Source: Pirellulaceae bacterium (lineage in GTDB: Bacteria; Planctomycetota; Planctomycetia; Pirellulales; Pirellulaceae). From it: a DNA stretch of 11,224 nt. Shown one piece after another: positions 8,320 to 10,978 of the stretch (the first letter of the stretch is position 1; every line of letters starts with the position of its first letter). The stretch spans positions 1 to 11,224 of the forward strand of contig JADLDX010000684.1 in NCBI GenBank assembly GCA_020846515.1, in the 5' to 3' direction. The notes below the pieces were generated by a model. That model was given only the letters and a program-made list of their open reading frames with translations, ran no database searches and had not been told where the DNA came from. Position numbers and translations under genes: made by a program.

Positions 8320-9102
8320 CTACGCGAAGTAGTTGACCGCATTTTGGAAGAGAGCTAAACCATCGCCATGTGCCGGTTGTTCGGCCCGACGTGTCCAGTA
8401 TGGATGATGTGTCGCTTCGATATGCCTTTCTGGGTGGGGCATTAGCCCAAAAATGCGGCCGCTCGCGTCGCTCAGGCCCGCCACATTCATTTCCGATCCA
8501 TTGGGATTAACTGGAAATGGTAGTTGAGTATTGGACACCGCGCCATGTTCTTCGGCGTAACGCAAGCACAACTGGTTCGTGCCTGCAAAACGACAACCGT
8601 CGTCGTCGTTCCGCAAGACCATTCGCCCTTCGGCGTGTGCCATGGGCAAGTACATGCGATCGATGCCTTGCAAGAAAACACAATTGCTGGCCGCCGAGGC
8701 CAGGTGCACCCAGCGATCTTCGAAGCGATTCTGACGATTGAGCGTCAAGGTCGCCGGCGGATGCTCTGGGTTTTCAAAGAAAATGCCCAAACGCATCATG
8801 ATCTGGAAACCGTTGCAAATACCTAGCACCAAATGATCGGCGTCGCGAAACTGGTTGACTGTGTCGCTAAGGTGGACCTTCAGCTGCTGTGCCAGAATTC
8901 TGCCAGCAGCGATGTCGTCGCCATAACTGAATCCACCTGGGAAGCAAAGAATCTGATGGTCGGCGGCCAGTTGAGGCGATTCGATCAGTCGGTTTACGTG
9001 CAATAAAGTTGTCTGTGCGCCAGCCAATTCAAAGGCGTACGCAGTTTCGACTTCACAATTCGTTCCAGGGGCTCGCAGAATGAGCACCTTTGGCGTGGCC
9101 AT
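8320..9102 (-). CDS. purQ: Phosphoribosylformylglycinamidine synthase, glutaminase subunit (PurQ)
   Basis: PurQ hydrolyses glutamine and passes ammonia to PurL, which converts FGAR to FGAM in step 4 of purine synthesis. The 260-residue sequence shows the typical start (PKVLILRAPGTNCEVETAYAF), the loop FPGGFSYGDDIAAGRI (54-69), the nucleophile Cys96 in LGICNGFQIM, and His223 and Glu225 in MPHPERHIEA. It is longer than Bacillus PurQ (about 227) and matches the longer form found in several phyla. The large PurL and PurS partners are not in the window. ATG at 9102 gives a family-normal N-terminus; no strong Shine-Dalgarno is seen. The gene is first on its strand after the 429-base spacer carrying the hairpin cluster. 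Confidence 0.95.
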   Translation of the reverse strand: MATPKVLILRAPGTNCEVETAYAFELAGAQTTLLHVNRLIESPQLAADHQILCFPGGFSYGDDIAAGRILAQQLKVHLSDTVNQFRDADHLVLGICNGFQIMMRLGIFFENPEHPPATLTLNRQNRFEDRWVHLASAASNCVFLQGIDRMYLPMAHAEGRMVLRNDDDGCRFAGTNQLCLRYAEEHGAVSNTQLPFPVNPNGSEMNVAGLSDASGRIFGLMPHPERHIEATHHPYWTRRAEQPAHGDGLALFQNAVNYFA

Positions 9103-9222
9103 CGATCAACCCTTATCCGATAGTACTGTAGAACCATCTAAGTTAGCCGCGGAAGTTAGTGTGACCCCATAGGCAGACTCTGCCAAGGTGACGCCACGCG
9201 GTTAAACACAATACCGTTCAAA

Positions 9223-9412
9223 TTTACGTAGCCACCGCTGCCAAGCGGTGGATTTTGTTTACGTAGCCACCCGCTGCCAAGCGGTTTACGTAGCCACCCG
9301 CTGCCAAGCGGTGGATTTTGTCTCCGCCAGTCCACCGTCTGGCGACGGGTGGCTACGGACCCAGTCCACCGTCTGGCGACGGTGGCTACGGTAGCGACAG
9401 GTGGCTACGGAC
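9223..9412. repeat. Cluster of six REP-like hairpin units in two opposing sets (family 1)
   Basis: Three units face plus. Their GTAG feet are at 9228, 9263 and 9290, each followed by CCACCGCT, loop GCCA, then AGCGGTGG. The second and third have an extra C in the left arm, and the second lacks the last TGG of its right arm. Three units face minus. Two are complete: CCACCGTC, loop TGGC, GACGGTGG then CTAC at 9332-9356 and 9366-9389. The third is a half unit with CTAC ending at 9408. On the same strand the two sets differ in the stem by CT/AG versus TC/GA, which keeps both base pairs. Units are 27-37 bases apart. The opposing sets can also pair with each other as one large inverted repeat. This is the layout of a BIME-type REP cluster. 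Confidence 0.8.
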
Positions 9413-9495
9413 AAGTTCACCTAGAGGTGGGGTAAAAAAAAGCTTCAGTTCTTCGAGCTAGCGACTACACTACAGGTTGGAAGAAATCTTGTCCT

Positions 9496-9507
9496 GGGCT
9501 TTAGCCC
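9496..9507 (+). repeat. Short hairpin before the secreted protein gene
   Basis: GGGCT-TT-AGCCC forms a perfect 5-bp hairpin with a 2-nt loop, 24 bases before the ATG at 9532, and is followed by a T-rich stretch GCTTTTCTC. It could be a weak terminator, part of the 5' leader, or another dispersed palindrome. It has no GTAG foot. Confidence 0.4.
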
Positions 9508-9531
9508 GCTTTTCTCTAACGGATTCCAAGC

Positions 9532-10548
9532 ATGGTCGTCCGCTGGCTGCGAATATCGAAAAGTTTGACAGCTTTATGGGTTTCCCTGGCTCTGATTAGT
9601 GCTGGGAGCGCGCCGATGGCTCAAGCACAAACAGCTGGTGCCGCACAATCAGCGCCGGCGGCTGGCCTGCCTGTGGCGGCCAATTCAGGTCGGCGTCTGG
9701 CGGCAGATGCTATCCACATTATCCCACCGGCGGCCGAATTTGGGGAAACTTTCGAAGGTCCATTCGATCTCCCACTGGTCACACCGCCCGCCGAACTGAA
9801 CTGGACACCTAACTTGGCGCCGGCCAGTGAGACATTGGCAATCCTGGCCAAGAACCAGATATTCCGCCATGAAGTCTGGTCAATGGAAATGGGCTTCAAA
9901 CCAGTTCGCATGATCCCTGTCGAATTGACCAATGCCCAGGGAGTCGTCGAAACCAAGATCGTCTGGTATCTGCTGTATTACGTGCGTTACCTGGGTGGCG
10001 ATATTGATCCCTCGCCGAGCAAAGACAGCTTTGGCAATGAGATTTTCCAGCCAGCTCCAGGAGCTGGGCGTACGGTACGCCGCTTTTTGCCGGGCTTCAC
10101 CATGAACTGTTCAGCACTGGGTAAACGGTTTGAAAGCCGCTTCATTCCCCAGGCCATTCCACTAATCACTGAAAAAGAACGCGTTGGCAAGCCTGTTTAT
10201 GATGCCATTGCTATTCAGAAAGTGCCTATTCAATTGTCGACCCCGCGCGAATCCCACGAAGTTTGGGGGGTAGCTACCTGGACCGACGTTGACCCGCGAA
10301 CGGATTTTTTCTCGGTCGAAGTCCGAGGGTTGACCAATGCCCAGAAAACCGAAAATGTGGATGGCAAATTGGTTAGCAAGCAAAAGACGCTCGTGCTGAA
10401 CTTTTCCAGGCCCGGCGATACTGTCAACGAATTGGCCGACAAAATCCGATATGGAGTGCCTGCCTATAGTGATTCTGCCCATCAAAAACTGATACTCAGC
10501 AAGTATGGCCTGCAGGAGCGTCTTGATCACTATTGGATTTATCGTTAG
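9532..10548 (+). CDS. Secreted protein of unknown function (planctomycete type)
   Basis: I do not recognise a characterised family. The 338-residue product has a clear signal peptide: Arg/Lys-containing start, hydrophobic core at about 11-24, cleavage likely after AQA at 32. An Ala/Gly/Pro-rich stretch (33-58) follows, then a folded domain. Notable parts are [20 protein letters not shown] (62-81), [24 protein letters not shown] (105-128), [14 protein letters not shown] (143-156, a hydrophobic beta-like strand rather than a membrane helix), [28 protein letters not shown] (243-270) and the end [14 protein letters not shown]. There is only one cysteine (193). The repeated beta-like pattern with 'VEVRGLTNA' suggests an extracytoplasmic beta-rich fold. 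The ATG gives a proper signal peptide; no good Shine-Dalgarno is visible. The stop is 97 bases before rpmA on the same strand. Confidence 0.7.
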
Positions 10549-10925: not shown

Positions 10926-10978
10926 CAGACCAGGCCATGACAGACCAGGCCATGACAGACTAGGCCATGACAGACCAG
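10926..10978. repeat. 15-bp tandem repeat, 3.5 copies
   Basis: The unit CAGACCAGGCCATGA repeats at 10926, 10941 and 10956 (one C-to-T change in the third), followed by a partial copy to 10978. There are no spacers, so it is not a CRISPR array. It starts 31 bases after the rpmA stop in non-coding sequence. Near-identity of the copies indicates recent slippage expansion. Confidence 0.85.

Follow-up and report, generated by a model that had tools for sequence, protein, structure and literature searches.

What kind of element is represented by a cluster of short hairpins with GTAG feet in an intergenic spacer of a Pirellulaceae bacterium, and which enzyme could have dispersed it? The cluster lies on contig JADLDX010000684.1 of assembly GCA_020846515.1; the whole 11,224-nt contig is termed here the window (C684), and its genome (G000) is represented by a 6.48 Mb assembly in 1089 contigs that is 80.8% complete. 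The preliminary description of this DNA recognized the architecture of repetitive extragenic palindromes (REPs) and bacterial interspersed mosaic elements (BIMEs), which are moved by REP-associated tyrosine transposases (RAYTs). This reading is supported by the GTAG foot, the 8-bp palindrome, the fixed loop, the inverted pairs and the copy number, as well as by intergenic bias, stem covariation and, in related genomes, a RAYT gene flanked by the element. We propose, at a probability of roughly 0.87, that the cluster is a small BIME made of tandemly amplified ends of an asymmetric ~67-bp REPIN (REP doublet forming hairpins), which would have been dispersed by the RAYT of a Pirellulaceae clade. 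The evidence supports well a new family of the known REP/REPIN kind, with its RAYT clade in the Pirellulaceae; the kind itself is already known, including from planctomycetes.

Direct reading of the spacer (positions 9103-9531) confirmed six GTAG feet, three per strand, within 9228-9408, with the caveat that they belong to four full hairpins, a truncated unit and a half unit. The units are of two types, A with the stem CCACCGCT/AGCGGTGG and B with the stem CCACCGTC/GACGGTGG, which share the loop GCCA and the GTAG foot and differ at two loop-adjacent stem positions (CT/AG in A, TC/GA in B). At these positions both arms have changed and pairing is kept, as had been described. On the plus strand, unit 1 (9228-9251) is a complete type A unit consisting of GTAG, the 8-bp stem and the loop GCCA; unit 2 (9263-9285), also of type A, is defective, with a surplus C in the 5' arm and a 3' arm that is truncated at AGCGGT and merges into the next unit; unit 3 (9290-9314), type A with one bulged C and otherwise complete, forms the left end of a head-to-head pair. 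The 17-nt pair spacer ATTTTGTCTCCGCCAGT (9315-9331) is followed by three units on the minus strand, namely unit 4 (9332-9356), a type B unit with one bulged base whose foot reads CTAC on the plus strand and which forms the right end of the pair, the complete type B unit 5 (9366-9389), and unit 6 (9394-9408), a half unit that comprises a foot and one arm without a hairpin. Two tandem arrays, one with a period of 27 bp (9257-9312) and one with a period of 34 bp (9327-9391), cover units 2 and 5, respectively. The exact 10-mer CGTAGCCACC occurs six times in the window, always within the cluster spacer; with up to two mismatches, it has 22 matches against 8.3 expected and a maximum of 16 in 200 shuffles. 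The cluster has no match in Rfam at the gathering threshold.

The element is not restricted to this locus, as a loose-pattern search of the host genome gave 320 matches compared with 3 for the reversed-pattern control, and a strict 24-mer search gave 253 matches with none in the control. A census of 49 contigs (420 kb), comprising the window and 48 contigs among the matches listed, contains 141 accepted units, including 82 of type B, 48 of type A and 11 others. GTAG is conserved across these copies: it precedes 129 of the 141 units and 101 of the 108 cores without mismatch, and half of the GTAG-preceded cores (66 of 131; 28 A and 38 B) are equal to the exact consensus. Inverted pairing is evident as well, since 41 of 84 neighbouring pairs within 250 bp are head-to-head, 2 are tail-to-tail and 41 have the same direction (34 of the latter alike). 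The partners in a head-to-head pair are unlike in 40 cases (34 strictly A+B, six with a variant unit) and alike in one, whereas 5000 shuffles of the type labels among clustered units gave a mean of 22.0 and a maximum of 34 unlike pairs. The spacer of these unlike pairs is most commonly 19 nt long (22 of 40), mostly resembling ATTTCGCCTCCAGACGAGT and in some cases AGAATCACCTGAAACGCTT, and thus the unit can be described as GTAG-A-19 nt-B'-CTAC, 67 bp. Either end of this unit is found amplified in tandem, as at the window, and such one-end arrays are common in the genome.

Stem covariation, previously seen in the window, holds among the genome copies. With the foot, part of the left arm and the loop held fixed, the right arm free and G-T pairs allowed, 81 of 106 copies in the 49 contigs were fully paired, as were 164 of 204 copies at loci of other genomes, some of which may be redundant. 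A set of 57 distinct 24-mers with GTGG or GTAG at the end shows pairing at the four inner stem positions in 50, 44, 53 and 50 sequences, compared with 46, 36, 49 and 47 in the best of 2000 shuffles, uncorrected for relatedness of the copies; these 24-mers include 12 different inner stems with full Watson-Crick pairing. A scan of named genomes revealed at least 79 stretches with the element, the titles of which include Roseiconus, Rhodopirellula, Aporhodopirellula, Stieleria and many metagenome-assembled genomes; three titles are non-planctomycete (Desulfobulbus, Alicyclobacillus and Gammaproteobacteria). At 76 loci of other genomes, we found 39 unlike and 2 alike head-to-head pairs. At least two positions are changed on both arms in 36 of the 39 unlike pairs, and both stems are fully paired in 26 of these 36. 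The B end recurs across genera of the Pirellulaceae and the other end has been replaced several times; the partners include CGCT, GCTC, GTTC and CACT, mostly compensated, and genome G006 combines GCTC with CGTC or CTTC. Among the matches listed, genomes G116, G080 and G110 contain like or nearly like pairs of the same class, and these three genomes gave no RAYT match at 1e-40 in a family-wide profile search.

The cognate enzyme emerged from a home-made profile applied to 139 stretches (1.03 Mb, nearly all selected for REPs), which produced one new hit, at 29 bits, in a Roseiconus nitratireducens gene located directly between repeats of the window's class. This protein scores below the cut-offs of both NF047646, the REP-associated tyrosine transposase family (E 1.6e-10), and Pfam Y1_Tnp (E 0.0035), and searches with PF01797 missed it because it falls below the Pfam threshold. 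Eight close homologues with 59-65% identity were found in 32 searched genomes. All nine genes are flanked by the element, and all nine proteins match NF047646 below its curated cut-off of 80 bits (36 and 41 bits were seen, best E 3.7e-11), which is a classifier threshold and not a biological trait. The MPDHxH (HUH) and YxxRNPER (single catalytic tyrosine) motifs are invariant in the RAYTs (A1 and A2), and the predicted fold of the clade enzyme is that of a RAYT; a sequence search of the PDB gave no match. In the profile search of 241 genomes of the family, the larger RAYT subfamily was present in 56 genomes and the close clade in 12, three of them in the window's genus. The element is located within 500 bp of the gene in all 12 clade RAYTs, on both sides in ten, and 20 of 23 examined members from more distant branches are accompanied by other GTAG palindromes. 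The stem class co-segregates with the RAYT lineage: on a tree of 35 RAYTs, with labels assigned by eye, the four stem classes require three changes, which is the minimum possible, compared with a mean of 17.2 in the shuffles, none of which (0 of 200) was as low. This tree includes 35 of 73 RAYT places, 36 of which were fetched; the fragment L340 and duplicate loci were excluded, and no label was given to three RAYTs that had no recognized flank. The close clade forms 12 rows with support 95/96, and L299 and L300, the flanks of which carry the window's A type (CGCT/AGCG), are sisters (100/98). Moreover, all 12 genomes with a clade RAYT contain at least five strict copies (5 to 350), compared with 21 of the 229 others (Fisher p 6e-12, uncorrected for kinship). 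The idea that the folded strand itself is recognized gains from this RAYT association and from the several compensated stems, while the two positions in the window, from which it was originally drawn, weigh less on their own.

Genes detected with Pfam PF01797 were also considered as the cognate enzyme and rejected, as none of 82 fetched stretches around them holds a unit of the class. These stretches include all 27 places in five REP-bearing congeners (G000, 2; G003, 6; G005, 4; G006, 8; G013, 7), four of the seven places in REP-bearing G008, and 30 from 16 further genomes, in which the coordinates of the other Y1 places were compared with the exact CCACC type among the matches listed, G071 and part of G068 excepted.

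Several observations weigh against the assignment of the window's element to this RAYT clade. The expected RAYT flanked by the element is found in relatives (12 of the 241 family genomes) and not in the window's own incomplete assembly, which gave no close cognate; the best hit there (G000:C585, E 1.3e-6) has a fetched flank without a unit of the class. Among the 21 genomes that combine at least five copies with no clade RAYT, copy number is high in the window's genome (253), G211 (629), G182 (151) and G027 (117), and the G211 genome (8.2 Mb) is 100% complete and has no RAYT match at 1e-40. Mobility is likewise deduced indirectly. The left neighbour of the cluster, a 260-aa open reading frame (ORF) at 8320-9102 on the minus strand with the cluster upstream of its start, is presumably purQ, encoding phosphoribosylformylglycinamidine synthase I; its orthologues in 14 congeners (63-70% identity) lack an intact copy next to them, within fetched flanks that do not share the right neighbour and that in G010 show only 59 bp upstream. 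In the congener G005, a head-to-head pair of the same kind, though degenerate, is located some 200 bp upstream of purQ (L281, 1236-1300).

The RAYT gene of the window's genome either lies in the part that the assembly lacks or has been lost. The latter possibility underlies the alternative that survives best, according to which the RAYT was lost from the lineage and the copies are relics that have lately been multiplied by tandem slippage only. The absence of a close RAYT from the assembly, the persistence of the element without one in 20 further genomes with at least five copies, and the abundance of one-end tandem arrays are in line with this scenario; however, a repeat-flanked gene is a likely gap in an assembly of this completeness, and the large share of exact consensus cores suggests recent spread. 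We regard loss as unlikely, though a serious contender. It is compatible with the REPIN/RAYT explanation for the family, as it denies only present activity in the window's genome; as an account of the whole family, it was dropped once the Roseiconus RAYT was found between repeats. Another RAYT of the window's genome, at G000:C184 (L031, 1186-1740, minus strand; L106; NF047646, 174 bits), was rejected as the partner, because the repeats on its flanks belong to a family of its own, GTAGGCCGGAAC..GTTCCGGC. This second GTAG family, GTAGGCCGGAAC(N)GTTCCGGC, has 14 matches in the genome, some of them overlapping on both strands, and four are located beside the C184 RAYT.

Alternatively, the repeat could be served in trans by a different Y1 enzyme, for instance by a TnpA group of the IS200 type with similar GTAGC palindromes. 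Within the genus and the family, IS200-like Y1 genes do adjoin their own GTAG palindromes, in G006 an IS200-like gene (L064) and a RAYT (L312) are flanked by one type of palindrome (GTAGCGAAACTCGT..), and G211 maintains its copies with no RAYT match; but the element is absent from all 82 stretches around Pfam-detected Y1 genes and from the flank of the C585 hit, and present beside all 12 clade RAYTs, which makes service by such an enzyme very improbable. As a separate observation, the Y1 genes at L064, L072/L082, L075, L208, L222 and L230 are IS200-like and stand beside GTAGC followed by an 8-bp stem with a 3-5 nt loop; L208 and L064, the genes tested, score above the NF033573 cut-off, as IS200 rather than RAYT, while the adjoining palindromes are REP-like. 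The palindrome GTAGCGAAACTCGT..GAGTTTCG is nearly identical at L064 (G006:C795) and L312 (G006:C197), and possibly one repeat is shared by two enzyme types in G006.

The genomic placement of the repeats, derived with a simple ORF caller, confirms the anticipated intergenic bias, with 111 of the 141 units outside ORFs; of the 57 clusters, 43 lie between ORFs, 5 extend across an ORF edge and 9 are within ORFs, some of which are short and doubtful. The 43 clusters that lie outside ORFs and have a called neighbour on either side occupy 23 tandem, 15 convergent and 5 divergent gaps, against a background of 162 tandem, 50 convergent and 52 divergent among 264 gene pairs, so that convergent gaps are enriched (p 0.026) and divergent gaps are not significantly depleted (p 0.29). 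In the region 9050-9600, three of four terminator-like hits (shuffle mean 0.8) coincide with two A hairpins that run into ATTTTG. The convergent enrichment and these hits would suit hairpins kept as transcription terminators or mRNA stabilizers for the role of the RNA at gene ends, but the window cluster is located between divergent genes, the commoner spacer in the genome opens with ATTTCG and has no T run, and the GTAG foot, the inverted paired layout and the RAYT adjacency would be left unexplained, so that this is the least credible of the alternatives. Among the genes beside the repeats, no family recurs at more than six loci and none is cargo-like or host-factor-like. The right neighbour of the window cluster, divergent from the left one, is a 338-aa ORF of unknown function (9532-10548, plus strand). 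Elsewhere in the window, a 15-bp tandem repeat, CAGACCAGGCCATGA, is present in 3.5 copies at 10926-10978, directly downstream of an ORF that we take to be rpmA-like.

Returning to the REPIN/RAYT reading, we picture a non-autonomous mobile element in which the GTAG-hairpin A, a spacer of ~19 nt and the inverted hairpin B-CTAC are dispersed, now or formerly, by a RAYT, which is a HUH/Y1 nuclease associated with REPs, from a divergent clade within the Pirellulaceae. In single-stranded DNA, such as that of the lagging strand, this enzyme would read the GTAG foot and the loop base or bases of the paired hairpin and would presumably cut and rejoin next to it, and the stem sequence may drift while pairing is kept. 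Partners pair less well with each other because they have different compensated stems, and this weaker pairing would leave the two local hairpins, the putative recognized form, accessible. A group 3 TnpA_REP requires GTAG and one loop base and does not process inverted REPs; its cutting was weakened or almost lost when the stem contained a mismatch, and complement swaps in the stem had mild effects (PMC8266576). These requirements match the Pirellulaceae pattern, in which the foot and loop are fixed and the stem is free to covary. A REPIN may fold into one long hairpin or two local ones (the 'clover'), the latter being proposed as the recognized form (PMC3116915).

The energies of the long hairpin and the clover were compared by a DNA ensemble calculation in 73 native pairs of unlike, strict unbulged units with spacers of up to 80 nt, to which the window's genome contributes 19 of its 40 pairs. 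The median advantage of the long fold is 3.7 kcal/mol in these 19 pairs, 0.8 in 20 pairs from G006 and 2.8 in 34 others, and the clover wins in 19 of the 73 (4, 8 and 7, respectively). For homodimer versions, in which both ends are made alike, the predicted gap is ~16 kcal/mol, with the clover favoured in 1 of 146. Thus, the A/B mismatch reduces the gap from ~16 to 1-4 kcal/mol, and the clover comes within reach without being dominant. A balance at ~0 for native pairs, initially obtained from hand-drawn structures, is superseded by the 0.8-3.7 kcal/mol of the stricter ensemble calculation. Beside RAYT genes, the heterodimer rule is followed in two of the four RAYT clades and is not universal: the partners are unlike in all 31 head-to-head pairs and in 25 of the 26 tail-to-tail pairs of the close clade, and in 18 of 20 and 11 of 11, respectively, in clade CGRAA, whereas head-to-head pairs are alike in 11 of 13 cases in clade YGRA, and 5 of 8 pairs are alike in clade YGGAY. 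As a tentative explanation, to which we give somewhat less than even odds, selection keeps the partners different, near a tipping point between an inert long hairpin and a clover that the RAYT can read. With the same reserve, the replacement stems, mostly self-pairing and pairing less well with B, could be read as products of this selection. The heterodimer preference has been described as having no obvious explanation, with protection from clearance as a suggestion (PMC3733652); the latter may be a second reason for heterodimers compatible with the present data.

The Pirellulaceae family shares with the Stenotrophomonas REPs and group 3 TnpA_REP the GTAG beside a perfect 8-9 bp stem, a short loop relevant for recognition, inverted doublets, RAYT genes flanked by their own REP class, and a REP diversity that follows RAYT lineage (PMC8266576, PMC3686654). 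In contrast to these systems, it has another stem, the 4-nt GCCA loop and systematically unlike inverted partners, and its RAYTs score below the Pfam and NCBIfam cut-offs where tested. In Pseudomonas and Stenotrophomonas, REP abundance is tied to the cognate RAYT, with exceptions that include RAYT loss (PMC3686654). The REPINs of Pseudomonas fluorescens likewise consist of two inverted REPs with a short spacer, for which hairpin and clover were considered, but these doublets are symmetrical and form one long hairpin (PMC3116915), whereas the Pirellulaceae ends are compensated variants with less cross-pairing. Unlike inverted partners are found in Escherichia coli BIMEs (y with z1/z2) and in P. 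aeruginosa GTAG-24, the dimers of which combine elements with different stems, so this feature was already known (PMC8266576, PMC3733652); E. coli REPs are imperfect and bulged, whereas the Pirellulaceae have perfect 8-bp stems with one end conserved across genera and the other varying. The interest that the preliminary description saw in a planctomycete REP is justified by the confirmed family, although not as a novelty in principle: a 2013 paper already lists GTAG repeats in Planctomycetes, with several families in Rhodopirellula baltica, a species that also has tyrosine transposase genes flanked by repeats (PMC3733652). These planctomycete palindromes are likened to ours by description, not by sequence, and may include the window's family. 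The literature searched, including the text matches listed for GTAGCCACC, provided no report of the element, by which we do not claim its absence from print, and planctomycete names do not occur in PMC2817692.

This planctomycete REP family is tied to its own RAYT clade by 12 matched cases across genera, and the position of the Roseiconus clade member below the Pfam cut-off implies that enzymes of this sort readily escape detection. The aspect that deserves further attention is the asymmetry of the unit, together with its effect on the folding energies. Selection for unlike partners, if true, would explain the unexplained heterodimer preference of many REPs, and since the stem pairs differ from genome to genome with a similar narrowing of the fold gap, the heterodimer rule makes an old puzzle biochemically testable.
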